A stretch of DNA of 60,001 nt, from the IMG/VR virus record IMGVR_UViG_3300042324_001336, positions 1-60,001 of that record; one strand, 5' to 3'. The notes below the pieces were generated by a model. That model was not told the DNA's origin and did not search any database. It saw nothing but the letters and a program-made list of their open reading frames with translations. Numbering within the stretch: the first letter of the stretch is position 1; every line of letters begins with the position of its first letter. Below, piece after piece: positions 1 to 59,075 of the stretch. The stretch comes from a virus. The translations under genes and the position numbers were made by a program.

Positions 1-415
1 CCAAGAATGCTTCTGTGTACTTAATGATTTCCCATAGTGAATCTTCAAATATTGTGATTGAATTAGCTTCGTGAGTTCTAATCAATTTAAGGGCAACCTC
101 AGCCTTAGCAGATTCTCTTCCAAGAAAGAACGTTTTATCGAATAAGATTCCGCCATTATCTCTAAGTATTTCAAGAACTCTTTCTTGACAGGCTTTAACT
201 CGGTGAGTTATTAAAAAACTAAGAACGTCTGGTTGCGCTTGAGTTTGCTCGCAAGTATTTAAGATTGCTCGAATGTTGAACTCCGGTGATAAAGACTCAG
301 GCGAGTCAAACCAGTCGTAGGGCGTAATTCCCTTTGCTTCTTTGCATGTGTAACCTGGCACTCTAAAGAGAGTTTCGTCAAAGTCGAATATGTTAATATG
401 AATATGATTTTCCAT
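1..415 (-). CDS. HAD-superfamily phosphatase, partial
   Basis: The reading frame starts at the ATG at 415 and is still open at the window edge, so the C-terminus is missing. Residues 10-15 read FDFDET, the DxDx(T/V) nucleophile motif of HAD phosphatases, followed by LFRVPGYT. A Trp-Phe pair near residue 34 and an FDKTFFLGR segment resemble the HAD domains found with 'Swiss army knife' RNA-repair proteins, but that sub-assignment is inference. It is divergent from the next gene, and a GTATATTA box lies in the shared spacer at about 450-459. A second HAD of this kind lies at 18100-18672. Confidence 0.7.
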   Translation of the reverse strand, partial: MENHIHINIFDFDETLFRVPGYTCKEAKGITPYDWFDSPESLSPEFNIRAILNTCEQTQAQPDVLSFLITHRVKACQERVLEILRDNGGILFDKTFFLGRESAKAEVALKLIRTHEANSITIFEDSLWEIIKYTEAFL

Positions 416-428
416 AGAGTATTTTACT

Positions 429-437
429 GATAAATAA
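429..437 (+). promoter_or_regulatory. T4-type late promoter motif GATAAATAA
   Basis: It lies 29 nt before the start at 467 and matches the T4 late-promoter core TATAAATA except at the first base. Confidence 0.5.
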
Positions 438-466
438 CCTAGTAGTTTTATCTAATATACTAAATT

Positions 467-937
467 ATGAACAGATCGCTAAGAAAAACAAGAGAATACG
501 ATGGAAACCATTATCAATTGGTTAGAGACTGTGTGCAGGCGCAAAAACCTTTCGTAATTTATAACTTTACTAATTCAAAACAGTACAATCAAGTCCTAAA
601 AGACCTAGATGACTATGGCAAGCTGCCTTATGTGCTACAAATACTAAATTCAATAGAAAATAGCGGCCACCGGATCAAGAGATCATTTCCTAGTATCTTT
701 GTTACTAATGAGGGTTCTGACGTATCTCATGAGCAATTCAAGGAGATGGTTAGAGGGTCAATTCAGCACTATAAATTAGACTCAGTTGTATGCCTTTACG
801 ATGGAGGCGTCTCTGTCTTCTACACAAACGGTGATCATCATGAACTTGGGGATTCAATTTACTCAAGTAATATAATTCAAGAGTTCAATAGTGACTTCTA
901 TCAAATCGAAAGTCTATATTATTGCTTTATCAGTTAA
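467..937 (+). CDS. Hypothetical protein, 156 aa
   Basis: I do not recognise this protein. It is soluble-looking, rich in Tyr and Asn, and has no signal peptide or membrane segment. The ATG at 467 is the first in frame and follows a late-type motif by 29 nt. The next gene starts 32 nt downstream in the same direction, so it may belong to the recombination block (UvsY-like, UvsW) or be an independent late gene. Confidence 0.6.
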   Translation: MNRSLRKTREYDGNHYQLVRDCVQAQKPFVIYNFTNSKQYNQVLKDLDDYGKLPYVLQILNSIENSGHRIKRSFPSIFVTNEGSDVSHEQFKEMVRGSIQHYKLDSVVCLYDGGVSVFYTNGDHHELGDSIYSSNIIQEFNSDFYQIESLYYCFIS

Positions 938-22335: not shown

Positions 22336-23232
22336 TTAAGCGATTGCTTTAAGTGAAATAGGTTCAGCAGTTCTCTTATCGTATACGTAAAGTGAATCTG
22401 CGATTTTTGTCTTTACCCAGTCCCCATTTTCTCCAATTGGGAGCTCGACTGTATCTCCAGGATTTAGAGTTTTGGCAATCTTTCTGCCATCCGGTAAAAT
22501 AATTCCCAATTTCAAGAATCGGTCTTCTCTAAAAGAATCACGGTTTAGGACACCATCAATTGTGCATTCAGTGAACTCTTTTAGGAATGGAATAAACACC
22601 TTAATTTTTCTACCAGCTGCGACTGAGTATTGTTGTTCTCCGCTAATAACTGCTGGAGTATAGGCAGCTCTTCTTTCTGGGATTACTTGACCGTCTTCTG
22701 TAAGTTCAAATACGCTATTTACTGTCTCTTCTGGTAATTCATATACGGTAACTGATCCAGTTTTACCCTTTCTAGAAAGATGATTTTCCAAATCCATTTG
22801 AATATCTTTATGAGACATTCTGTGAGGGAGCACCTTGATTGTTGTAAGAACATCATCTGAAATATAGGCGAAAACTCGCTCGCCGATGTGAATTTTTTCA
22901 ATCTCTCCACTAAATGATTTTACAGACATTGTTACTGGATAAGAGGTACCCTCTATCTTTAAGAATGGTGCAACTACTGGTAGGGCTTTATGGCCTGATG
23001 GAAATTGAGTTCTCTCAATATGGTCTTGGCTCTTTTTAAATTCAGATTTAATAGCATCAATGAGTTGAGAGTAGACTTCGTTTATTTCAAATCCAGCTTC
23101 TCGAATAAATTGTCTCGCTGGCTTAGGTAAGTTAATTGACTCTAGATTATAGATTCGTTGATCTATACGACCCTCTCCGTGAGAAGAGATTCGGGCTTCA
23201 GTTATGAATTGTGTAAATTTAAGTAACTTCAA
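22336..23232 (-). CDS. Internal head protein candidate with capsid-targeting-like N-terminus
   Basis: 298 aa. The start codon is TTG at 23232: this frame gives KLLKFTQFITEA, nearly identical to the N-termini of four other genes, and no in-frame ATG lies upstream. A perfect TATAAATA box lies 23 nt before it. Residues 16-30 contain SSHGEGRIDQRIYNL, reminiscent of the H-x-x-x-R motif of small RelE/BrnT-like toxins, but no full domain is recognised. The C-terminal half is beta-rich. Confidence 0.65.
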   Translation of the reverse strand: MKLLKFTQFITEARISSHGEGRIDQRIYNLESINLPKPARQFIREAGFEINEVYSQLIDAIKSEFKKSQDHIERTQFPSGHKALPVVAPFLKIEGTSYPVTMSVKSFSGEIEKIHIGERVFAYISDDVLTTIKVLPHRMSHKDIQMDLENHLSRKGKTGSVTVYELPEETVNSVFELTEDGQVIPERRAAYTPAVISGEQQYSVAAGRKIKVFIPFLKEFTECTIDGVLNRDSFREDRFLKLGIILPDGRKIAKTLNPGDTVELPIGENGDWVKTKIADSLYVYDKRTAEPISLKAIA

Positions 23233-24597: not shown

Positions 24598-25929
24598 TTA
24601 TTCTTTTCTTTTTGCTAATTTTCTTTTAACTGCTTCCCGAGTCGACTCCATTTTCTTGGCATAACTTGGATTTTTTCGCTTGTTAAAATTAATTTGTTGA
24701 TTTAGCGATCCAGTAATCTTTTGCATGTTACCACCTCTTGTTCTGATTAACCAATCCGCTAATTTATTAACTCCAAGGTCTCTGAATTTTCCATTTGCAT
24801 CAGGTGCATCAGAATCGTGCCATTTAAGTTTTTTCTTTTCTGAAATTTCATCTTCATCAGCTTCATCATCTTCTTCGTCATCCCATCTGTGATACTGTTC
24901 CTCAATTGCCTTATTTAAAAGATCTTGAATTTTGTCGTACATTCCAAGCGAGTCTTCGAAACCAGTTACGGCACTCATAAAGAGTTCAATATCTTCAGCT
25001 ATCTCATTAGACTTCATTGAAACTGGATCTCCATTTTGGAATAGGTCAGACCATTCATAGTCTTCAAGTTCAGCATCTTCGTAAAGTCCGATATCTTTTT
25101 GTGCGACACTAACTGACGACTTAACAGTTTCATCGATAAAGTTTATTCTGACTTCAAAATCAGTCCATACGTCTCTTTCTATATCCGGATATTCGGATGA
25201 ATCTATTCCGTAATCATCTATAGATTGATTGAACTGGCCTGAAACAATAACGATTTGATCTTCTGCAGTTGCTCCATTGACTAGTTCTGCGATTGCATCA
25301 GTGTCAACTCCACCAAAACCCATTGCTCTTAGTTCTGCAGCTTCTTCATCAGATAAGTTCTCAATTATGAATTTTCCTTTTGTGTTAGGCTCATCAGAAT
25401 CATGCCATTTAAGTTTCTTCTTTTCTGATACTTCTCCAAGACGTCTATCGATTATGTCATTTACTATATCGACTGCCATGTCTACAAACATGCCTTCGTA
25501 TTCAATTCGCTGCAAAATCTGAGTTAACTCATCAGCGATTCCTTGAGAATCGTGATTTTCTGAATCCAGTTTAAAATCAACTTCATACGCATTACCTGCA
25601 CCGTCAAAATCAATCCCAGAATTTAAGACTGCCACTTGTACTTTAGATTTCATTGTCTCAAAGTCGAAATCAACATAGTACTGAACAAGGAACACGCTAT
25701 CTAATTCAGCAGCCTCTGCTCTTTCTGGATCAAGTCCTAAATCATCAGCTGTCATATCAAATCCCAAATCGAAACCTAATGTCGTGTCGGTCTTCTCCTC
25801 TGGGTTGTATTCGGCCATTAATCCTTGAATTTCATCCGTGTCAATCTTTGAATTAAAACCTAATGCTGCTAATTCTTCAGCATCATCAGTATTTTCATTA
25901 ACGAATTGTGTAAATCGTTTAAGTCTCAT
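24598..25929 (-). CDS. Large acidic internal head protein candidate with repeated modules
   Basis: 443 aa. N-terminus MRLKRFTQFVNE is the clearest capsid-targeting-like peptide. The module SEKKKLKWHDSD-x-P-x-x-x-GKF occurs twice (about 168-187 and 364-383), and an E-L-x-A-M/L-G-F-x-x-x-(V/I)DTD element occurs near 19-34 and 199-212. The basic C-terminus (TRGGNMQKITGSLNQQINFNKR...) suggests nucleic-acid contact. Very acidic between. It overlaps the next gene by one base. Related pieces occur in 48116-48667. Confidence 0.62.
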   Translation of the reverse strand: MRLKRFTQFVNENTDDAEELAALGFNSKIDTDEIQGLMAEYNPEEKTDTTLGFDLGFDMTADDLGLDPERAEAAELDSVFLVQYYVDFDFETMKSKVQVAVLNSGIDFDGAGNAYEVDFKLDSENHDSQGIADELTQILQRIEYEGMFVDMAVDIVNDIIDRRLGEVSEKKKLKWHDSDEPNTKGKFIIENLSDEEAAELRAMGFGGVDTDAIAELVNGATAEDQIVIVSGQFNQSIDDYGIDSSEYPDIERDVWTDFEVRINFIDETVKSSVSVAQKDIGLYEDAELEDYEWSDLFQNGDPVSMKSNEIAEDIELFMSAVTGFEDSLGMYDKIQDLLNKAIEEQYHRWDDEEDDEADEDEISEKKKLKWHDSDAPDANGKFRDLGVNKLADWLIRTRGGNMQKITGSLNQQINFNKRKNPSYAKKMESTREAVKRKLAKRKE

Positions 25930-34129: not shown

Positions 34130-35563
34130 TTATTCTGCGCCTGGTGTAAGCTTGTTAAGCATAGCCAGTAAGCCTTTACCTTCAGGTGTCTGTTTCAATG
34201 ATTCAAGAAGCCCGTTAATCTGTGAACCTCCTTTAGCTGTGAATAGGTCGCTTAACTTGCCAATTCCTGAGTGTACGTCTCCACTATTTACCAATAGTTT
34301 CAAGTCAGCTCCAGCCATTGCTTTTGCCATCGATTCGTATTGTGCAACTCCGACTACTTGAGTTACTTCAACTTCTCTAATTTTGATCAAGTATTCTTGG
34401 TAAGATTTGTTTTCGCCAATCTCTTTTGCTAGGGTTGTTTGGGCAGTTACTCCAGCAAGCTCCATTGCTTTCTTGGATTCAGCCTGCGATATACCCTTTG
34501 CTTTAATAATATCTGCTTCTGCTTGGCCCAGAGTTTTAACACCTTCTGCATTTTTGATCTGTGCTTCAAGTGTAGCAGAAGCCTCAGTCTCAATTCTAAA
34601 TTTATTAGCCTCTGCGTCAATTTCAGTTTTGCGTTTTTGTTGCTCAGCTGCAATAATTGCCTTTTCCTTATCAATTTCAGCCTGCTTAATCTCATTAACT
34701 TTAACGACCTCCATTTGCTGTTCAGCAGTAGCTCGTTCAGCTTGAGCGATATCTGATATTGACTCTTGTTCTGCAATACCTGCCTTTTTTGTAGCCTCTG
34801 CTTTGGCAATACCGATTGCCTGTATTGATTGAGCTTGCGCCTCTCCTGCAATTTTCTGAGTTTCTGCTTTAGTTACATCAATTTCTTGTTGAGCAGTTAG
34901 TTCCGCCTGCTCTGCCAATTTAGTGTTTTTAGCAACTTCAGTTCTGGATTCCATATCAATCGCAGACATTCGCTTAGCCATAATCTGGTGAATAACGCTC
35001 GAACCGTCAGTATCTCTAACATCCATTAACTCGATATTTTTAATAGGCTCAACTCCCCAATTAGATAAATCAACTTTAACACTTTCAGTAAATTTTTCGC
35101 CAAAGATAGATCGTTCTTCCATAATTTCCTCCAATTTAGACTTTGCTAAAATAGAACGAACTGCTCCTTGAACTACATTTTCCAGCTGCTTTTTCAACTC
35201 GTCAAATGATTCTACTTTCTCGGCAGCTTTATTTGTATCAGCAATGTGGAAGAATGCCTTAACGTCAACTACGAAAGGGACACGGTCCTTATCATACGCT
35301 GAATATTTAGCTAAGTCAATATCAAAGTTAGATACTGGCAATGATCTGACCATAACTCCGATTTTAGGTAACCACTTCGGCCACTCATAATAAACGTTAG
35401 AGCCTTTACCTACGCCATAGGAAACAGTTTTGTCTCCTCGTTGAACGATGTGGACTACGTTAGTTGGCACGATTCGACGTAGAGATAGTGCATAAAAAAA
35501 TACGATTACCCCTATTAAGGCCGGTAGTCCGTACATAAGTGATGATGTGATGATTTCTGTCAT
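34130..35563 (-). CDS. Flotillin / SPFH-domain membrane protein
   Basis: 477 aa. N-terminal hydrophobic segment (about 7-28), SPFH/Band 7 domain (about 32-215), then a long coiled coil rich in Ala, Glu and Gln with many A-E-A/A-Q-A repeats (about 215-400), and a C-terminal tail. Flotillins scaffold membrane microdomains. One possibility is protection or remodelling of the host membrane during infection; this is inference. Own promoter box and terminator, so an independent unit. Confidence 0.88.
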   Translation of the reverse strand: MTEIITSSLMYGLPALIGVIVFFYALSLRRIVPTNVVHIVQRGDKTVSYGVGKGSNVYYEWPKWLPKIGVMVRSLPVSNFDIDLAKYSAYDKDRVPFVVDVKAFFHIADTNKAAEKVESFDELKKQLENVVQGAVRSILAKSKLEEIMEERSIFGEKFTESVKVDLSNWGVEPIKNIELMDVRDTDGSSVIHQIMAKRMSAIDMESRTEVAKNTKLAEQAELTAQQEIDVTKAETQKIAGEAQAQSIQAIGIAKAEATKKAGIAEQESISDIAQAERATAEQQMEVVKVNEIKQAEIDKEKAIIAAEQQKRKTEIDAEANKFRIETEASATLEAQIKNAEGVKTLGQAEADIIKAKGISQAESKKAMELAGVTAQTTLAKEIGENKSYQEYLIKIREVEVTQVVGVAQYESMAKAMAGADLKLLVNSGDVHSGIGKLSDLFTAKGGSQINGLLESLKQTPEGKGLLAMLNKLTPGAE

Positions 35564-47525: not shown

Positions 47526-48089
47526 TTACTTTATCATTGCTGCAAGTTTTTCGTTTGCTTGATCGATCTTAGAGAATTTAGACTCAAAGAAAGACTTTAA
47601 CTTGGCAACGATTGCTGTGATTTTACCAGACAACCTAGCAACGATCGCTTTAGCTTTATCAGTTAATTTAGATTCATCTAGTTTTTCAATATCGTATGAG
47701 TGTTTTACGTTTGATATTGCTGTGTTTTGTCTAACACATTCGTTGATAATTGCTTGAGCAGCAGCATCGACTAACCCTAGTGCCTGCTCTACAGCTTTAG
47801 CATAAGATGGGTTTTCAGAAGATCCGCCGTATCTTGAAATCTTGATAACGTATTTTTCAGTTGTTGCAAGCTTATCATTTAGGACTTTCATTGCATCAAA
47901 GATCGGCTTCATTGTTGCATCAAATGCACCAAGCTCAGTATTGATAGCTTTTGTTTCAGCTGTCAATTCTTTTAATCGAGTTTTGATTTCGTGAATTCTA
48001 TCAAGCTTAGCAACGATAGTTTTATCTTTGATTTGAGCTTCGTTAATCTTTGCTTCGTTAACAAATTGTGTGAATCTTTTAAGTTTCAT
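47526..48089 (-). CDS. Internal head protein candidate, coiled coil
   Basis: 187 aa. N-terminus MKLKRFTQFVNEAKINEA, then a long helical coiled coil (about 30-75 and 140-187), Lys/Ala-rich. It is nearly identical at its start to 48116-48667 and 24598-25929. E-A after FVNE fits cleavage by a gp21-type prohead protease, which is not in this window. Late motif 19 nt upstream. Confidence 0.63.
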   Translation of the reverse strand: MKLKRFTQFVNEAKINEAQIKDKTIVAKLDRIHEIKTRLKELTAETKAINTELGAFDATMKPIFDAMKVLNDKLATTEKYVIKISRYGGSSENPSYAKAVEQALGLVDAAAQAIINECVRQNTAISNVKHSYDIEKLDESKLTDKAKAIVARLSGKITAIVAKLKSFFESKFSKIDQANEKLAAMIK

Positions 48090-48108: not shown

Positions 48109-48117
48109 TTATTTATT
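48109..48117 (-). promoter_or_regulatory. Late promoter motif AATAAATAA
   Basis: Upstream of 48089, overlapping the stop of 48116-48667. Confidence 0.5.
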
Positions 48118-48667
48118 AATAACGATCATCGTCGTAATCATCGTAGTCAGGCTCATCAGGTTCAAAATCCTCAACCGCTCTATCGAGAGCAGAGTCAGTT
48201 CTTTTTTTGAAAGTACCAGTTAAATCGACTAGAGTATTTGAATCGTAAAGAGCTTTGAATTTATTAATGAAGTCCTTGAGCTCTTCTCCTGTAATTTCTT
48301 CTTGCTCTGCATCGTATATTAAATCGCCAATTGCTGCATATTCATCAGCTCCTTCAAATCCCATGCTTTTTAACTCTTCAGCTTCAGGGGAATCTAGCAT
48401 GGCTTTAACCTGCGAAATTACTGAAGGATCAGTTACTTTATACACTCCGTCTACTCCATCAAAGTCAACATCATCAACTGAATAGCCGCCAACGAATCCG
48501 ACACTGCTATCGTCAGGCTCATAATCGAAAGATACGTCTAGTGTAACAAGCCAAATTATGTAGATTATTTCGTCTATTAAGAATATATTTTCTTCAACTT
48601 CAATAACTGACGAAGATTCTGTTATCAAGCTCTCTTTTACAAATTGTGAAAATCTCTTAAGTTTCAT
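48116..48667 (-). CDS. Internal head protein candidate, acidic
   Basis: 183 aa. N-terminus MKLKRFSQFVKESLITES, then an acidic body with EAEELKSMGFEGADEYAAI (about 93-111), which resembles the E-L-x-A-M-G-F-x-G modules in 24598-25929. C-terminal tail of Asp and Tyr. A late motif sits 17 nt before the start. Confidence 0.63.
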   Translation of the reverse strand: MKLKRFSQFVKESLITESSSVIEVEENIFLIDEIIYIIWLVTLDVSFDYEPDDSSVGFVGGYSVDDVDFDGVDGVYKVTDPSVISQVKAMLDSPEAEELKSMGFEGADEYAAIGDLIYDAEQEEITGEELKDFINKFKALYDSNTLVDLTGTFKKRTDSALDRAVEDFEPDEPDYDDYDDDRY

Positions 48668-52426: not shown

Positions 52427-53029
52427 ATGAATTACACAAAAGAAATGATCGAGGCTGCAGTTAAGGCAAAGGGTTATGCTTGGTTCGAAGGGGCCAAAGA
52501 CTATGACCTAAATCTAGTTGGGGTTAGAAATAACTCAGCGGCAATCGCAGATAAAGTTACTAATCTATTTGACGATTGGATGACTGCTTCTTATAAAGTT
52601 AACGGCGTATGGCAATTTAACTGCTGGCCAATAACTACTGATCCGGGTAAGAAAGCTATGCTTGAATATCACAATCCAAATGGAGTTGCTCGAGTAGTTC
52701 CAGGACAATATCGTGGAATGTGGGCGATTGGATTACACCAGGGCAAATACGAAGCACTAAGACAGGTTAAGCCAGTTAAAGTTTATCGTGATAAAAACAA
52801 AGACATGAAGTATGACGAAACAACAATTCAAGAAGGAATCTTTGGAATTAACGGTCACCGCTCTAACCCAAAAACTCAATCTGAATACGTTGAAAACTGG
52901 TCCGAAGGTTGTCAAGTATTTAAAAAGGTTGCAGACTTTAATGCCTTAATGAAACTTGCAAATCTAGCTAAAGCAATCCACGGAAATTCATTCACTTACA
53001 CTCTATTGGAATCAACTGATATTGTTTAA
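52427..53029 (+). CDS. LD-transpeptidase-like cell-wall protein (putative)
   Basis: 200 aa. WPITTDPG, VARVVPGQYRGMWAIGLHQGKY, YRDKNKDMKYD and FGINGHRSN...WSEGCQVF. The His followed by x-x-G-C resembles the active-site pair of LD-transpeptidases (H...S-x-G-C), and the gene opens the lysis cassette. It could act on peptidoglycan in the virion. Known from other Bacteroidota phages by pattern only. Confidence 0.55.
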   Translation: MNYTKEMIEAAVKAKGYAWFEGAKDYDLNLVGVRNNSAAIADKVTNLFDDWMTASYKVNGVWQFNCWPITTDPGKKAMLEYHNPNGVARVVPGQYRGMWAIGLHQGKYEALRQVKPVKVYRDKNKDMKYDETTIQEGIFGINGHRSNPKTQSEYVENWSEGCQVFKKVADFNALMKLANLAKAIHGNSFTYTLLESTDIV

Positions 53030-53129: not shown

Positions 53130-53954
53130 ATGCTATTAAAGAATGGATCTAATGGCCCAGAGGTTGCCAAAATGCAAGCACTCCTAGGAGTAGGCGCAGA
53201 TGGAAGCTTCGGACCTGGAACAGAAACCGCTGTCAAAGCATGGCAGCAAGCAAACGGGCTTACTCCTGACGGTATCGTCGGAGATGCTACTTGGGCTAAG
53301 ATGTTTGGTGCAGCTCCAGTTGCAGCTCCAGCAGCTACGCCAATCCCACCATCAAGTTTTAAACTTGAAAAACTAGCTGGACATGTACCAGCAGCAGTAA
53401 TCGCTCAAATTCCTGACACAGCTGCAAAATTCGGAATCACTAATCCTTTAAGATTAGCTCACTTCCTTGCGCAATGTGGACACGAAAGTGGAGGATTCAA
53501 AGCAGTTAACGAGAATCTAAACTATTCAGCTGACGGTCTTAAAAAGATCTTCGGAAAGTATTTTCCTGGTAACTTAAACGAGTCTTATGCTCGTCAACCT
53601 GAAAAAATCGCTGCTAGAGTGTATGCTTCTAGAATGGGTAATGGAGATGAAGCTTCGAAAGAAGGTTTTAAATTCAGAGGTCGCGGTTACATTCAATTGA
53701 CTGGTAAATCGAATTACACAAACTTTGCAAAATTTATCGGCGAGGATACTGTTGCTAATCCGGATCTAGTCGCTACAAAATACCCACTCGCATCGGCTGC
53801 TTTCTTTTTTCAGTCTAATGGCTTATGGGCGATTTGTGATAAAGGAGCAGACACTGCTGCTGTAACTGCGGTAACTAAGAGAGTTAATGGTGGAACGATT
53901 GGTTTGGCTGACCGTATTAAACACTTTAACGAGTATTACGCTTTATTAAAATAA
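53130..53954 (+). CDS. GH19 endolysin with peptidoglycan-binding domain
   Basis: 274 aa. An N-terminal PG_binding_1 domain (about 1-60, GSNGPEVAKMQALLG) is followed by an Ala/Pro linker and a GH19 chitinase-like domain (about 80-274) with catalytic Glu119 in CGHESGGF, NENLNYS, FRGRGYIQLTGKSNY. It cleaves glycan strands at lysis. No signal peptide, so it needs a holin. Confidence 0.94.
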   Translation: MLLKNGSNGPEVAKMQALLGVGADGSFGPGTETAVKAWQQANGLTPDGIVGDATWAKMFGAAPVAAPAATPIPPSSFKLEKLAGHVPAAVIAQIPDTAAKFGITNPLRLAHFLAQCGHESGGFKAVNENLNYSADGLKKIFGKYFPGNLNESYARQPEKIAARVYASRMGNGDEASKEGFKFRGRGYIQLTGKSNYTNFAKFIGEDTVANPDLVATKYPLASAAFFFQSNGLWAICDKGADTAAVTAVTKRVNGGTIGLADRIKHFNEYYALLK

Positions 53955-53972: not shown

Positions 53973-55895
53973 ATGAAAAAAATAATCTTTATTCTATTCG
54001 CACTAGTCACGTGCGCACTCTCTACTGGAGTTTATGCTCAAAGTGGACCTCCTGCCCCAGGCGCAGGAATTTGGACAATCATTGATACGACATATCAAGT
54101 TGGTACAAGTACGCTAGGTCAGTCCAAAGCCAGAATCACGCTAAAGAATGCAACTATCTCAAAATACACAGGTATTCAAACTCGAATATTTTACGATAAG
54201 GATGCATTTGCTAGTGCATCAGTTGCGCTAGTTGGATCGCCTACTAACTTATATTTACAGTCAGTAGATAGTAATGCTACCGGTTACGTAACCCTTTCAT
54301 TAGTGTATACTGGAAACAGCAGTACTTATACTCTAGCGGACGGTGAAACCTTTGAAATAACCTTTACTCACGTTGCAGCTGCATCGTTTTATGCGTTACC
54401 CTCAATCAGTGCTCTTACGTTTAGTGGCGCAGCTTCTTTTACTACACTCGCTGCATCTCAGACAGGTTTAGATACTACTCTAAGCAAGCATAGCTACGGC
54501 GGTGTATGGGAACAGCCTACTTTAGACTTCCATGGTAAATTTACAAACGTTACTGGAACTGGAGCAAAGAACTTAACTTTAGCTCTTGAGAAAAAGGTAA
54601 AAGCTGGAGGTACTTGGGGAACTCATGATACGTACGTAACTGACCTAAGTGGAAATTTTGCATTTAGCGAAATTATTGATACTACTTATTATGATGTACG
54701 CCTTGCAATTAAAGGTGATACGATGACGGTAGGAAACGTTATATCAACAGCAGATGCTCAATTAATTAATCAATGGGTGTTAGGGTCAGCGACTCCTTCC
54801 GGATTCGACTTCTATACAGCAGATGTTAACGGTTCAACTAACGTAACAATAACTGATGCATACGGAGTATTTGGTAGAATTGCTGGAAGATTCACTGAAT
54901 GGCCTAATGCCGTTGAGGATGTTAAGTTCTTTACTGCTGCCCAATACACAACAATCACAGGATCTCCATCGACTAACTATACTTCAACTTATGCTGGAGT
55001 AACAAACTTCTACTACGACATTTTACCAGGACAACCTGATTCAGTTCAATATTACGTACTTGTTCCAGGAGATGCAAACGGTACGGGTTACAACATGGCT
55101 CGTTTAACGCCAATTGAAGTAATGATCAATCCACCGGCTGGAACCCCAGCTCAAACTGAAAACGTAATTGATATGACAGTTGAATACGATTTTCCAACGA
55201 GCTCAATTGAAGTTAATCTTCCTAATCTTTCTGTAAATTCAGGAAATCTAGTAGAAATACCGGTTACTGTTAAAACTGGAGGAAAGGATATTTCGTCTCT
55301 TCAATTAGCAATGTTATACGATCAGACCTTATTGGAATTTAAAGACATTACTAACTCTGCTAAATCAATGCAGTGGATGTCTTCATTCAATCCAACTGGC
55401 GGAATTATCGAATGGGCCGGTTACGATCCATCAGCTAACAAAAGCTACATGATTCCAGATAATTATGAAGTTTTTAAATTGAGATTTATCGCACTTAAAC
55501 CTCAAATTGATTGGGAGGCATCGCCTTTGTATACTTCTAGAAAATTCTCAGGAGACAATCAATCTAGGGATTTATCAATCACCGCAGCAAACGGCATCTT
55601 AATCGTTGCTAAAATGGCTGGACCTTCTGGTCAATTGGATAACTTTGAAATTACCGCATTTCCCAATCCAACTACTGGAGAGATAAGCTTTGACTTCTCA
55701 GTTAAGAATAGCGGAATGGTTAAGTTAGTAATCGTTGACCTAAACGGATCAGAACAATTTGTTATACTTGATCAAGACATGCCAGCTGGAAAATACGTAT
55801 ACTCTTCCAATATTAATCAGTTAACTAGCGGATTATACGTTGCTTCTTTACAGGCAGTTGATCAAATTAACTCTACTAAAATCATAAAAAAATAA
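53973..55895 (+). CDS. Secreted T9SS cargo with cohesin-like and dockerin-like domains
   Basis: 640 aa. Signal peptide 1-22 (AQ). A first cohesin-like beta domain covers about 30-140. A dockerin-like calcium loop DVNGSTNVTITDAYGVF starts at 284, followed by a second loop region with DANGTG. A second cohesin-like domain covers about 412-535 (NLSVNSGNLVEIPVTV). The type IX sorting domain (ITAFPNPTTGEISFDF...) covers about 555-640. Such cargo is exported by the host T9SS and anchored or released at the cell surface. 18 nt after the endolysin; expressed with the lysis cassette. Confidence 0.85.
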   Translation: MKKIIFILFALVTCALSTGVYAQSGPPAPGAGIWTIIDTTYQVGTSTLGQSKARITLKNATISKYTGIQTRIFYDKDAFASASVALVGSPTNLYLQSVDSNATGYVTLSLVYTGNSSTYTLADGETFEITFTHVAAASFYALPSISALTFSGAASFTTLAASQTGLDTTLSKHSYGGVWEQPTLDFHGKFTNVTGTGAKNLTLALEKKVKAGGTWGTHDTYVTDLSGNFAFSEIIDTTYYDVRLAIKGDTMTVGNVISTADAQLINQWVLGSATPSGFDFYTADVNGSTNVTITDAYGVFGRIAGRFTEWPNAVEDVKFFTAAQYTTITGSPSTNYTSTYAGVTNFYYDILPGQPDSVQYYVLVPGDANGTGYNMARLTPIEVMINPPAGTPAQTENVIDMTVEYDFPTSSIEVNLPNLSVNSGNLVEIPVTVKTGGKDISSLQLAMLYDQTLLEFKDITNSAKSMQWMSSFNPTGGIIEWAGYDPSANKSYMIPDNYEVFKLRFIALKPQIDWEASPLYTSRKFSGDNQSRDLSITAANGILIVAKMAGPSGQLDNFEITAFPNPTTGEISFDFSVKNSGMVKLVIVDLNGSEQFVILDQDMPAGKYVYSSNINQLTSGLYVASLQAVDQINSTKIIKK

Positions 55896-55902
55896 ACAAA
55901 CA

Positions 55903-56244
55903 ATGTCTGAGGAAACAAACGCAGCAGAAACAAATGATGGAACATGGTCAGGTCTTAAGAAGACCCTGATCGGTACGATCTCTACGGCAGTTTTAGCTGG
56001 AGGTACATGGCTTACAACTACTCTATTTAACGGAGGTGACCATGAAAAAGAAGAAACGAAAACTGAACAGGTTGCACCAGCAGCTCAACCAGTTATCAAC
56101 GTTAATCTTGAAAACAATAATACAAATCAACAAAAACAATCAGGCGGAACTAACACAGTAATCCGTGAGAGAGTTGTTGAGAAAGCTCCAGCTGAAAAAC
56201 CAGCGGAAAAGAAGAAGAGCGAGTCTGAAGACGCTCCTTGGTAA
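55903..56244 (+). CDS. Small membrane protein of the lysis cassette
   Basis: 113 aa. One hydrophobic helix (about 20-42, LIGTISTAVLAGGTWLTTTL), Asn/Gln-rich middle and Lys/Glu/Pro C-terminus. Position between T9SS cargo and holin-like gene, with a terminator after it. A spanin-like or holin-accessory role is a guess. Confidence 0.55.
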   Translation: MSEETNAAETNDGTWSGLKKTLIGTISTAVLAGGTWLTTTLFNGGDHEKEETKTEQVAPAAQPVINVNLENNNTNQQKQSGGTNTVIRERVVEKAPAEKPAEKKKSESEDAPW

Positions 56245-56305: not shown

Positions 56306-56668
56306 ATGTCTAATTTGAAAAAATTATTAATCGGTGAATCTGCATACGTAAAGGTTGAAGACAAGAATCGCTTCTACTACATGCTACAACAAATGCAGTC
56401 AAACCGTTGGAAAATTACAGGAATCGTTCTATTTCTTTTCTTCTTTATTATTGCTGGAATTAATTCAGCTGTATTTTTTGGAGTAACAATCGCAGAAGAT
56501 TGGAAAGAATTACTACTTCTTTTATTGGGAGCCTTTGTTGGTAACCTAAATAAAGTAGTTGACTACTGGTTCAATTCAGAAGATCGTGATAAAATGTTAA
56601 TTCAAAAGGTTGACGAAGAAGATGGAGTATCTCTTTCTAATACTACTTCAAATAACGTAACCGAATAA
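56306..56668 (+). CDS. Holin-like membrane protein
   Basis: 120 aa. Two transmembrane helices (about 37-58 and 66-84, WKELLLLLLGAFVGNL) and a charged tail with VVDYWFNSEDRDKMLIQKVDEED in part. Proteins of this layout are common beside endolysins in Bacteroidota phages. Membrane permeabilisation is inferred. Confidence 0.62.
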   Translation: MSNLKKLLIGESAYVKVEDKNRFYYMLQQMQSNRWKITGIVLFLFFFIIAGINSAVFFGVTIAEDWKELLLLLLGAFVGNLNKVVDYWFNSEDRDKMLIQKVDEEDGVSLSNTTSNNVTE

Positions 56669-56670
56669 TC

Positions 56671-57390
56671 ATGAAGAGATTAGCACTTATCTTAATAATG
56701 CTTTTCTCAGTAAGCTTATGTATTGCTCAGCCTGGTTCAATCAAGACTGAGCAGTACCGAGCTTCTTTTGAAAAGAAGATGTCAATTGACTCTGTTCCGG
56801 AATATACTGACACAATTAAAATTCCTATTCAATTATTAAAGATTGGAATTAATGAGGAGCTTTACGAAATGTATCCTGAGTTAAAGGATAAACGGGTTGG
56901 TCTTGGTGTAACAAATATTGTATTGGAATATTTGGAATACACAAACCGTTTTGTATTTACTGAAGACAAACTTGAAATTAAAGAGAGAATGATTAGTCAA
57001 TTTAAAGCGTCTGATAAAGGATTCACTGAGAATAAACTAGACGGCCGTGGTAAAATCAAGTTAGCAAAATACTTTGTCTATATTGAAGTTTACGATTTCT
57101 CTGTATCAGAAGATGAAGTCGTTAGAATAAACGGCGAGTCTAAAACAACTCAAACAACTCGACTGGGTTTACAGGTAAAATTCGTTGATGCTGAGACTGG
57201 AGAAGTTCTAGTTGGTTCAGGATTAGGCGAAGCTTCCACTATTAAAACCGTTTCTATTTTAGATGGAGTGGACGATAGTGAAATTAAATTTAACCAATCT
57301 ACCATTGGTATTACAACTAAAAAGGCGTTAGAGACAGCATCGTCTAGGATAGTGGTGAGAATGATTAAGAAGAATATCTTCAAAAATTAA
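56671..57390 (+). CDS. CsgG-like outer-membrane secretion protein
   Basis: 239 aa. Signal peptide 1-19 (CIAQ). The body matches the CsgG pattern: FVFTEDKLEIKERM, KYFVYIEVYDFSV, QVKFVDAETGEVLVGSGLGEAS, KKALETASSRIVVRMI. CsgG is the curli export pore; its lipobox Cys is not at the usual site here (C17 precedes IAQ). Placed among other surface genes. Reuse as a pore or trap is open. Confidence 0.72.
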   Translation: MKRLALILIMLFSVSLCIAQPGSIKTEQYRASFEKKMSIDSVPEYTDTIKIPIQLLKIGINEELYEMYPELKDKRVGLGVTNIVLEYLEYTNRFVFTEDKLEIKERMISQFKASDKGFTENKLDGRGKIKLAKYFVYIEVYDFSVSEDEVVRINGESKTTQTTRLGLQVKFVDAETGEVLVGSGLGEASTIKTVSILDGVDDSEIKFNQSTIGITTKKALETASSRIVVRMIKKNIFKN

Positions 57391-57404: not shown

Positions 57405-59075
57405 ATGTATGTTAAAAAAATTATACTGCTTATTGCGTGGATCTTAGTATCGTCATTGGGAATGGCTCAAACCTTTTCCTACAATTACACTGATCCATGT
57501 ACTGGAATAAACAAAACAATACAAGTTCCATCAAACGGAATAACAGTAACCTATTACGGTCAAGTAAATACATTTCAACCAACGGATTTTTACAATGGAG
57601 GTTTTGAGACATGGGCTCAAGGCGTTTATTCTTCCTTTGGTAATAACAACCCATGTGCAAGTTTAGTAGGAATGCCTACTTCAGTTAATATAGCACAAAA
57701 TACAGCAATTAGTTTTCTAGGAATAGTAAACTCATTATCGGCTCTATCTGATATGGCTGGCGGATCAAGTAATATGATTGGCGGAACTGTCTCTAGTGTA
57801 CAAAATTCCTCCAAGTCAAAGGGTAACTCCAAAAATAAAGGCGGGGCGGATAAACCTGCAGAAAATAGTACTTCAACAAATGCACAATCTAATGGAAGTA
57901 CTGGTGGTAGCTCTAACTCTGGGACCACTAGTAACAATGGGAGCTCTACTAGCAGTAGTGGATCTTCTACGACACAGGGCTCACAGACTCAAGGTTCGAA
58001 CGAAACTGGCTCGACAAGCAGCGGAGGATCTGGAGAACCAGGATCAACTGCCGGTAACGGAACAGCTGGGTCTCAAGCTGGCAATGGAACCTCTGGGTCT
58101 CAAGCAGGTGGATCAACCACTGGAAGCGGTTCAACGACCGGCTCAACTACCGGAAGCGGTTCAACGACCGGCTCAACTACCGGAAGCGGATCAACAACCG
58201 GCAACGGAACTACCGGATCTCAAGCTAGCGGATCAACTTCAAATAGCGGCAATGTTAATGGAGGCGGGTCTGGAACGACCGCTGGCTCTGGAACAAGCGG
58301 CTCAAATAATCAGTCAACGCCAACTTCTGAAACAGAAGCAGGTGGAAAAACTAACTTAATTGGCGGATCAGTTGGTTCAGTACAGGAATCAACTTCCGCA
58401 GGTGGAGGAGCAGCCGGTGCCTCTAATAAAAATGGGAATCGACCTAGTATTTTAGCAAGCAGCGATTTCGTTGGATTCAATTTTAAAAATTCAGATGTTA
58501 CAGTTGGAGGAAAGGTCACTGGAGGTTACTCATCAATGAGATGGGACGGAAAGAGATCTCACGGAATTAGTGCAGACTATACGACTGCTATAAAGGGTCC
58601 AAATATTACAGGCTTTTATGCATTCATGAATAAGCGAAGAATAGATTTAATCTCTACATCGCTTACTATTGGTTTTGAAAGACAAATGACTGTCTATGGA
58701 ACATTAGCAGTAGGTCAAATGTGGACTCTAAATAAGCCGAAAAACCTAAAAGCTCTTTATATGCTAACCGGTTCAGTCGGCCAAGTATCAGGGACTGCTT
58801 TTATAGGAACTGCTGCTATTGCTGGAGGAATGTATGACTGGAAAATCTCTAAGAGAATTTCAGTAAAAATGTTATGTTTGTACGTGTATGCCCCATACGT
58901 TAGTTACTATAATGATGTTCTATTAAAATCACCACATGTGGTTTTACCTATTATGGGAACTAATATCGGGATAACTAAACGATTTAAGCTTAACATAAAC
59001 GCCGGTGGAGCTTGGGCGATTAATGAATCCACATTAAACTATACCATCATGCTGGGAACTCGCATGCTATTATGA
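57405..59075 (+). CDS. Outer-membrane-like protein with Gly/Ser/Thr repeat linker
   Basis: 556 aa. Signal peptide 1-21 (MAQ). N-domain to about 130, then a low-complexity Gly/Ser/Thr/Asn linker (about 135-345, built from GSTTG units), then a C-terminal domain (350-556) with alternating Gly/aromatic strands (GGYSSMRW...IMLGTRMLL) typical of an outer-membrane beta-barrel. It overlaps the next gene by 4 bp. Might be inserted in the host envelope. Confidence 0.68.
   Translation: MYVKKIILLIAWILVSSLGMAQTFSYNYTDPCTGINKTIQVPSNGITVTYYGQVNTFQPTDFYNGGFETWAQGVYSSFGNNNPCASLVGMPTSVNIAQNTAISFLGIVNSLSALSDMAGGSSNMIGGTVSSVQNSSKSKGNSKNKGGADKPAENSTSTNAQSNGSTGGSSNSGTTSNNGSSTSSSGSSTTQGSQTQGSNETGSTSSGGSGEPGSTAGNGTAGSQAGNGTSGSQAGGSTTGSGSTTGSTTGSGSTTGSTTGSGSTTGNGTTGSQASGSTSNSGNVNGGGSGTTAGSGTSGSNNQSTPTSETEAGGKTNLIGGSVGSVQESTSAGGGAAGASNKNGNRPSILASSDFVGFNFKNSDVTVGGKVTGGYSSMRWDGKRSHGISADYTTAIKGPNITGFYAFMNKRRIDLISTSLTIGFERQMTVYGTLAVGQMWTLNKPKNLKALYMLTGSVGQVSGTAFIGTAAIAGGMYDWKISKRISVKMLCLYVYAPYVSYYNDVLLKSPHVVLPIMGTNIGITKRFKLNINAGGAWAINESTLNYTIMLGTRMLL
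58122..58201 (+). repeat. 30-bp tandem repeat in coding linker
   Basis: Two identical 30-bp units at 58122-58151 and 58152-58181 plus a diverged third (to 58201) encode the GSGSTTGSTT linker. Confidence 0.8.

Follow-up and report, generated by a model that had tools for sequence, protein, structure and literature searches.

A conserved gene cassette of large phages encodes a putative type IX-secreted cohesin-dockerin scaffold and exchangeable lectin-type proteins

We analysed a 60,001-nucleotide stretch of viral DNA (positions 1 to 60,001 of IMG/VR record IMGVR_UViG_3300042324_001336, henceforth referred to as the window) with regard to one gene on its + strand, at 53973-55895. An earlier reading of the letters alone (the original prediction) had described the product as a cargo of the host type IX secretion system (T9SS), with a signal peptide, two cohesin-like domains, a dockerin-like calcium loop and a C-terminal sorting domain, encoded within a lysis cassette. 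The open reading frame (ORF) is intact, and the gene (henceforth the scaffold gene) is a member of a conserved envelope cassette, together with genes for dockerin-lectin and CsgG-fold proteins, which the original prediction had overlooked; the likely mechanism therefore shifts to a scaffold with an exchangeable payload. In the window protein the sorting domain scored above the cut-offs of both Pfam (PF18962, E 1.5e-7; 32.0 against a cut-off of 27) and TIGR04183 (E 1.2e-7; 31.6 against 23), and the second cohesin scored above that of Pfam (E 1.2e-10; 42.2 bits against 24.1). The dockerin-like stretch fell below the Pfam cut-off (E 0.096), and a Pfam search with the first domain gave no match. 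The features of the gene and its neighbours are collected in Table 1.

Table 1. Scaffold gene, its predicted domains and neighbouring genes in the window
Feature	Position	Strand	Remarks
Scaffold ORF	53973-55895	+	intact, ATG start, 640 aa
Signal peptide	scaffold residues 1-23		MKKIIFILFALVTCALSTGVYAQ; by eye
Cohesin-like domain 1	scaffold residues about 24-182		weak
Transthyretin (TTR)/CnaB-like domain with dockerin-like insert	scaffold residues about 183-366		loop D284-D295
Conserved linker GDANGTG..MAR	scaffold residues 366-377		
Type I cohesin (second)	scaffold residues about 412-541		Pfam match 412-511
T9SS type A sorting domain	scaffold residues 563-638 of 640		Pfam and TIGR04183
Endolysin-related gene	52427-53029	+	phrog_3000, E 5.8e-38 (function unknown); phrog_33083, endolysin, E 4.5e-14
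Endolysin, peptidoglycan-binding and glycoside hydrolase 19 (GH19)	53130-53954	+	phrog_181, E 4.6e-70
113-aa protein, one membrane helix (by eye), long polar tail	55903-56244	+	cluster 3
120-aa small membrane protein, two hydrophobic stretches (by eye)	56306-56668	+	cluster 7
CsgG-fold protein with signal peptide	56671-57390	+	most conserved gene of the cassette
Outer-membrane-protein-like (OMP-like) gene	57405-59075	+	homologue immuto_18
Dockerin payload protein, 392 aa	59072-60001, runs to about 60250 (read in L002)	+	

Relatives were collected with an alignment of the CsgG-fold protein from two phages as the search seed. The two phages were that of the window and the cultured Flavobacterium phage immuto. 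In viral contigs the search confirmed 188 relatives, and the best 80 were kept; three near-identical ones were then dropped and immuto was added, giving 78 loci. Loci L001-L005 and L008-L010, which are the same as or near-identical to L007, are excluded from the 78, and because other near-identical loci remained in the set (for example L016/L017, L033/L035 and L069/L074/L075) the 78 are not independent. The scaffold family comprised 71 proteins, 37 of them non-redundant, with both halves of the immuto scaffold standing outside the 71. Signal peptides were called by a rule-based check written for this analysis, not by SignalP. Under this rule 70 of the 71 family members were signal-peptide-like, as had been claimed for the window protein, and 60 had an x-Q cleavage site, while none of the control proteins was flagged (0/42 endolysins, 0/30 phosphatases and 0/16 ThyA). 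Since the rule without x-Q flags small membrane proteins too (26/40 and 24/33, against 0 and 1 with x-Q), the x-Q count is the better figure.

The sorting domain was the most constant match in the family: at E ≤ 0.01 all 37 non-redundant scaffolds matched Por_Secre_tail, 32 matched Cohesin and 11 matched Dockerin_1 (best Dockerin_1 match in the family, E 7.8e-5). When whole records were searched (50 of the 78, mostly the longest), the sorting domain was found over the cut-off in 49 and was located in the scaffold in 48, including immuto, where it lies in the 245-aa scaffold half. The contigs of the remaining two end before the scaffold; L064 has the domain in another ORF and L037 is the one record without it. 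Cohesin was matched at E ≤ 0.01 in 46 of the 50 records and over the cut-off in 43, the cohesin-free records being L037 and L064, which have no scaffold, and L063 and L068, whose scaffold does not match. Among 14 control genomes, none had the sorting domain over the cut-off and one had cohesin.

Conservation was uneven along the protein. Mean identity to the window was highest in the dockerin region (74%), the domain surrounding it (68%) and the GDANGTG..MAR linker (67%), and lowest in the signal peptide (29%) and the sorting domain (37%), within which P564, N565, P566, G592, G606, Y610, G620 and Y622 are invariant. The ratio of non-synonymous to synonymous substitution rates (Ka/Ks) had a median of 0.14 for the sorting domain, with 0 of 154 pairs above 1, and medians of 0.06-0.14 for the separate domains, with none above 1 in 152-155 non-independent pairs, which indicates purifying selection. 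Chance or a misreading of the scaffold is ruled out by the cut-offs, the conservation and the Ka/Ks values.

Structure prediction of the domains, which had been proposed as a check, clarified which of them resemble known modules. The AlphaFold2 model of the scaffold, built from 37 sequences, was of middling confidence (mean predicted local distance difference test score, pLDDT, 70.5). In this model, residues 420-541 resemble type I cohesins (Z 12.6, root-mean-square deviation (rmsd) 2.4 over 120 residues), and rows 1-38 of the VIA comparison were all cohesin or scaffoldin entries; residues 184-365, into which the dockerin-like stretch is inserted, resemble transthyretin-like folds (Z 8.5-8.8), and the first domain is modelled as a beta-sandwich. 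Of the two cohesin-like domains originally described, the second is thus clear and the first is weak. An N-terminal second cohesin match, below the cut-off, was seen in 27 of the 50 records and suggests kinship of the first domain with cohesin. In a profile-profile comparison, however, the first and second domains did not match significantly (Prob 1, E 0.05), the control comparison with the sorting domain giving Prob 2.8, E 0.016; two equal cohesins are thus not borne out. The claim of a dockerin-like calcium loop likewise held in part. The loop pattern occurs in 55 of the 71 scaffolds but in just 1 of 1370 other ORFs and in 59 of 2700 shuffled copies. Among solved structures, the family profile matched a cellulosomal dockerin (4uyp_B, E 0.0012), 5jvk_A (0.0018), which is the C-terminal end of an uncharacterized protein, the T9SS sorting domain 8glj_D (0.005) and cohesins (6kg8_A, 0.023); a match to the DNA methyltransferase 3qv2_A (E 0.017) was taken as chance. 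A true dockerin has two loops, however, and here just one looks canonical, the second having been judged by eye. As a separate observation, GDANGTG..MAR..PI (scaffold residues 366-381, window 55068-55115) is almost invariant in the 37 scaffolds and sits at the edge of a stretch that is disordered in the model, and the first half of the split immuto scaffold terminates directly after GDVNGTGLN.

The set of genes that recurs across the 78 loci consists of the scaffold, small membrane proteins, the CsgG-fold protein, the OMP-like protein, the dockerin-lectin protein and a second CsgG-like protein. With loci that extend far enough as denominators, the scaffold lies directly upstream of the CsgG-fold gene in 70/71, the OMP-like gene directly downstream of it in 66/66, a dockerin-lectin gene further downstream in 58/59 and the second CsgG-like gene in 59/59. 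Both misses are immuto, in which the scaffold is split and the lectin gene lies upstream. The last genes vary in order, and in one group the second CsgG-like gene stands ahead of the lectin gene. The 113-aa membrane protein is present in 67 of the 78 loci and a protein of an HExxH cluster in 47/59 (the motif occurs in 50 of 51 cluster members). In 21/59 loci there is, within the cassette or next to it, a DNA/RNA non-specific endonuclease with a signal peptide (cluster 10, 23 loci, for example L006:9935-10513 and L013:3447-4064; PF01223, E 8.9e-26 and 1.3e-22 in two), which could destroy incoming DNA in the periplasm. PHROGs searches gave no family for the scaffold, OMP-like or payload protein and nothing at E ≤ 0.01 for two members of the small membrane proteins; the sole match of the window's 120-aa membrane protein was phrog_38564 (function unknown, E 0.0014), and from context alone we infer a holin role for it. 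The OMP-like protein, for which a Pfam search with the window member found no match, has by eye a signal peptide, a two-cysteine N-terminal domain, a Gly/Ser/Thr-rich linker and a C-terminal beta-barrel-like part.

The placement of the gene in a lysis cassette describes the window well. There the + strand run opens with the endolysin-related gene, and from the GH19 endolysin onward the genes follow on the same strand at gaps of 18, 7, 61, 2, 14 and -4 bases, the first of these separating the endolysin from the scaffold. This arrangement, together with candidate-holin small membrane proteins of clusters 6 and 7 (40/78 and 33/78 loci, respectively), would suit a reading in which the cassette is an outer-membrane arm of lysis, with holin-type membrane proteins, CsgG-fold and OMP-like proteins that weaken the membrane, and a scaffold that disturbs the T9SS or the surface layer. 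The arrangement is not general, however: among 59 loci that extend far enough, 21 have a GH19-type endolysin near the cassette on its own strand and 13 on the opposite one (34 in all), while 25 have none nearby, and in immuto the cassette comes after replication and ribonucleotide reductase genes. Since breakage of a membrane needs neither exchangeable lectins nor a sorting domain, we consider a role in lysis improbable, although it ranks next after the strongest rival, adhesion, which is discussed with the payload below.

The most conserved gene of the cassette was recognised by fold and not by sequence. Against PDB sequences the CsgG-fold protein had nothing at E ≤ 1, and a Pfam search with 22 members returned three unrelated weak families and no CsgG; an identification as CsgG by sequence is therefore rejected, and the support comes from the fold search. 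Although the model is of low confidence (pLDDT 58.7), Foldseek rows 1-17 and VIA rows 1-8 were all curli CsgG (Z 11.4, rmsd 4.3 over 161 residues), the following VIA entries being Cj1090c, LptE and PelC, so that a CsgG fold is likely. CsgG, which exports curli, and PelC-type ring proteins are thus the best fold matches, and the cassette protein differs from CsgG in having no sequence match to it, no lipobox in the window protein and no evident pore hairpins. By eye, the signal peptide of the window protein is of the ordinary type and ends in AQ, whereas the relative in L087 has a lipobox-like FACGS. The model places long strands at 134-195 with a turn that by eye is polar and charged, and a PelC-like periplasmic ring is as likely as a membrane pore.

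The partner protein at the end of the cassette carries the same module as the scaffold. The window payload protein has a signal peptide, a payload domain and a C-terminal dockerin-like module homologous to scaffold domain 2, and no sorting domain was found in it; a profile comparison of the module common to scaffold domain 2 and the lectin protein gave hhalign Prob 99.9, E 2.9e-33. Of 65 lectin-type proteins 45 were non-redundant, and 43 remained once immuto_15 and the cut-off L078 protein had been left out; both immuto_14 and immuto_15 also stand outside the 64 lectin proteins in which motifs were counted. At E ≤ 0.01 the 43 matched Lectin_C (29), Laminin_G_3 (13; part of a lectin/glucanase superfamily), Dockerin_1 (11), Ig_7 (5), GEVED (4) and PA14 (1), and no glycoside hydrolase family was among the 11 Pfam families that they matched. 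The motifs EPN and WND, which we take to be those of sugar-binding C-type lectins, occur together in 44 of the 64 proteins, and the dockerin loop pattern occurs in 55.

We next compared the parts of the cassette between close relatives, using 60 de-duplicated locus pairs picked for scaffolds 80-99% identical. The pairs share members, and identity was computed over the longer protein, so that length changes count as differences. Median identity of the payload part was 27%, with 37 of the 60 pairs under 50%, as against 81% for the dock part (16 under 50%), 94% for the CsgG-fold protein (none under 83%) and 80.5% for the OMP-like protein (none under 50%); among the 97 pairs present before de-duplication, 61 fell under 50% in the payload part and 29 in the dock part. 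Such a pattern is largely what would be expected of a plug-in part swapped on a base that changes less. Swapping of the payload between close relatives is also what is expected if its targets outside the cell change, and Lectin_C, Laminin_G_3, PA14 and GEVED are common adhesion domains. The T9SS cargo of free-living Flavobacteria is often adhesive. These points favour an alternative in which the displayed lectins glue infected cells to neighbours, algae or particles and so bring progeny near new hosts, one of the roles (altered adhesion) raised in the original prediction. A dying cell would gain little time in this way, however, and adhesion offers no obvious role for the nuclease and HExxH genes. 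We regard adhesion as unlikely, though as the strongest of the rivals.

Within the collection of cultured phages, relatives were found in Flavobacterium phage immuto only (four records, three isolates), whose host is Flavobacterium sp. LMO8. Its scaffold is split into two proteins: immuto_14 has a signal peptide, the first domain and the dockerin-like part without a sorting domain, and immuto_15 has its own signal peptide, the cohesin and the sorting domain, which is what a two-part assembly would allow. Compared with the window, the 113-aa membrane protein is 61% identical (57 residues), the CsgG-fold protein 62% and the OMP-like protein 25%; the dockerin part of the immuto C-type-lectin protein resembles the product of the window gene at 59072 (35% over 161 residues), and the second small CsgG-like protein is 28% identical over 129 residues.

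Signal peptides recur in four proteins of the cassette, with x-Q sites in 60/71 scaffolds, 53/64 lectin proteins, 68/77 CsgG-fold proteins and 72/76 OMP-like proteins. Because of these signal peptides, a part in the attachment of progeny virions, which had also been offered as a role, is unlikely. More broadly, use of the proteins to coat or dock onto progeny virions, for instance as particle lectins, is in our view very improbable: although sections of PMC7824862 and PMC8008677 report or predict that phage particles bear Ig-like and lectin domains, signal peptides and a sorting domain lead out of the cytoplasm, where virions are assembled.

The window comes from a large phage: four IMG/VR contigs of 270-271 kb are identical to each other throughout the 21,920 bases around the scaffold gene, and one of the four showed no difference from the window in a comparison of 16,028 bases. 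The window also contains a T4-type portal gene (phrog_213, E 2.4e-62), and in cassette-bearing phages we compared identity to this portal with identity to the CsgG-fold protein: L015 has 74% for the portal and 81% for the CsgG-fold protein, and L016 has 34% and 85%. Portal identity was 41-45% in L019, L020 and L063 and 20-25%, over part of the protein, in immuto, L028 and L073; in the phages of low portal identity the CsgG-fold protein was 62-85% identical. A portal match was absent from 6 of 22 records, some of which are perhaps fragments, so this is no evidence of absence. On sequence grounds, these comparisons suggest that the cassette has been exchanged between phages. By eye, GIY-YIG-like homing endonuclease genes lie directly upstream of the scaffold in 7 loci (cluster 34, for example L036:4835-5416 and L039:2424-3005; also L087:4885-5571), and it is possible that such an endonuclease is a vehicle that moves the cassette. 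Two phages have paired adjacent portal-like genes (G038:C1:136085-139360, L063; G008:C1:30368-33540, L019), each 41-44% identical to the window portal, which represent either a tandem duplication or a heteromeric portal.

In the genome collection, a search with two short seeds, which distant genes may escape, found only 2 relatives, both on contigs of metagenome-assembled genomes (MAGs) that carry the same cassette. The nearest is in a Bacteroidetes MAG that has SprA and, in the same contig number range, a portal 89% identical to that of the window. The second, L087 (RFPL01000028.1), is in a bin labelled Sphingomonadaceae, in which SprA was not found (SprA in 1 of the 2 MAGs); this bin is probably misbinned. 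With only these 2 relatives from the two-seed search, both with the phage cassette, a recent bacterial gene is unlikely. The domains are of a bacterial kind, which would agree with a chance pick-up of a bacterial T9SS gene with no role in infection; given a gene set that recurs in 78 loci, Ka/Ks well under 1 and, from the two-seed search of the genome collection, only 2 relatives that both lie beside the same phage cassette, we consider this explanation to be extremely improbable. The conserved sorting domain, purifying selection, SprA in the MAG of the nearest relative and the Flavobacterium host of immuto agree with the original prediction that the host T9SS would place the protein at the surface. 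In six records (L030, L032, L041, L047, L058 and L064; G017, G019, G025, G027, G034 and G039, L025's kin) a second, non-scaffold ORF of 206-757 aa also matches the sorting domain at E ≤ 0.01, 3 of the 6 over the cut-off, and some phages thus carry further possible T9SS cargo.

We favour the following explanation. The scaffold would leave the cytoplasm by Sec export, cross the outer membrane through the host T9SS by its type A sorting domain and be left anchored at the surface. There its cohesin and dockerin-like modules would carry, or form an assembly with, another secreted phage protein, one that combines the same dockerin-like module with an exchangeable domain for carbohydrate binding (C-type lectin, laminin-G, GEVED, PA14 and others). 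This protein has no sorting domain, and the CsgG-fold proteins and their OMP-like partner would presumably aid its delivery to the outer membrane or its seating there. The lectins may then mask sugars on the host surface that phages use as receptors, which could prevent superinfection, a role also raised in the original prediction, and keep progeny from adhering to the dying cell and to debris. Export of the scaffold to the surface by the host T9SS is highly probable, because it follows from a set of sequence features that selection has kept. The shared modules, the recurring neighbourhood, the immuto split and the payload exchange argue that the scaffold and the dockerin-lectins act together, and we judge a predicted complex between them to be about evenly balanced with its absence; should both export and complex hold, receptor masking or superinfection exclusion would again be a balanced prospect. 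Receptor masking fits best because surface lectins, a secreted nuclease and an HExxH protein occur in one set and because there is precedent for receptor blocking by phages. T5 Llp, reportedly a single small lipoprotein sent to the outer membrane that blocks a receptor and has a defined target, resembles the cassette in the function proposed, that of an envelope-bound phage protein blocking a receptor, and differs in that the cassette would be a multi-protein lectin display. Taken as a whole and set against its rivals, the explanation is the leading one, and we hold it tentatively.

Several points weigh against it. The evidence for secretion, surface location, cohesin-dockerin binding and exclusion consists of sequence and models. 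As the lectin protein has no sorting domain, its passage across the outer membrane is unexplained. Only one dockerin loop looks canonical, 26 of 37 scaffolds and 32 of 43 lectin proteins have no Dockerin_1 match at E ≤ 0.01, Cohesin is unmatched in 5 of the 37 scaffolds as well as in the scaffold-holding records L063 and L068, and a Pfam search with the window's own payload protein gave no family. With dock parts under 50% identity in 16 of 60 pairs, the exchange is less clean than a constant plug would give. Finally, two endolysin-type genes stand at the start of the + strand run in the window, and the cassette may therefore be expressed too late to protect a cell; since the endolysin is on the opposite strand or not nearby in many loci, timing is unreadable from context.

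Parts of this arrangement have counterparts in known systems. Phage-encoded T9SS cargo has been reported for Cryophage, with superinfection exclusion raised as a possibility, the cargo being an endoglucanase, a GH39 enzyme and a PA14 protein, all variable genes of one phage population (sections of PMC7468147, Nat Commun 2020). Variable phage T9SS cargo is common to both; in contrast to Cryophage, the cassette has a conserved cohesin-dockerin scaffold in many divergent phages, and the variability lies in a separate dockerin protein. In crAss-like phages, T9SS sorting domains occur beside BACON proteins, upstream of head genes (sections of PMC6949934, Viruses 2019), which likewise puts phage sorting domains near carbohydrate-binding-type domains. 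The main text of PMC7468147 has 0 occurrences of cohesin, dockerin and CsgG, and that of PMC6949934 has 0 of cohesin. In the text examined, a jumbo-phage survey (PMC7824862) mentions lectins and superinfection with 0 occurrences of cohesin, dockerin or CsgG, and PMC8008677 has C-type lectins with 0 of cohesin or dockerin. No description of the cassette was found in the literature searched, a collection that lacks bioRxiv preprints altogether and the majority of subscription papers. The idea of phage T9SS cargo has thus been published already, and the cohesin-dockerin-lectin cassette would be the new part. The cassette also resembles the scaffoldins of cellulosomes (type I cohesins, for example 6kgc, 1aoh and 3kcp), which share the cohesin fold, a scaffold held at the surface and dockerin-module partners with exchangeable domains; it differs in being made of phage genes, in a payload of lectins and not hydrolases, in one canonical dockerin loop and in T9SS anchoring. 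Because there is no hydrolase payload the cassette is likened to a cellulosome and not filed as one, full membership being rejected.

It is possible, and we advance this with more reserve than receptor masking itself, that the cassette is a virus-owned surface organelle, a T9SS-mounted cohesin-dockerin scaffold with exchangeable lectins that acts as a cellulosome counterpart controlling which phages bind, and that it moves as a unit between divergent large Bacteroidota phages. If so, phages of a very common aquatic phylum would take over a dedicated secretion system to alter the surface of the cell that they infect, by means of a plug-in design in which the anchor stays constant and the sugar-binding part is exchanged rapidly, and cohesin-dockerin-type pairing and CsgG-fold proteins would enter phage biology. 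It would also provide a concrete mechanism for superinfection control in Bacteroidota phages, in which, to our knowledge, such control factors are little studied. The cultured phage immuto, which grows on Flavobacterium sp. LMO8, makes the masking mechanism testable.

Other features of the window phage were noted in passing. The + strand run that holds the cassette ends with an outer-membrane-type protein (DUF481, E 1.8e-8) at L002:17513-18256, about window 61485-62228. On the - strand there are 26 tRNA genes in several clusters (window 23499-49951) and a 477-aa protein that is flotillin-like by eye (34130-35563). Also on the - strand, four genes (22336-23232, 24598-25929, 47526-48089 and 48116-48667) encode different proteins with a common N-terminus (MKLKRFTQFVNE, MRLKRFTQFVNE, MKLKRFSQFVKE and MKLLKFTQFITE, respectively), which we take to be of the type of the capsid-targeting peptide of T4 internal proteins; by this analogy, such proteins may be packed in the head and injected with the DNA.

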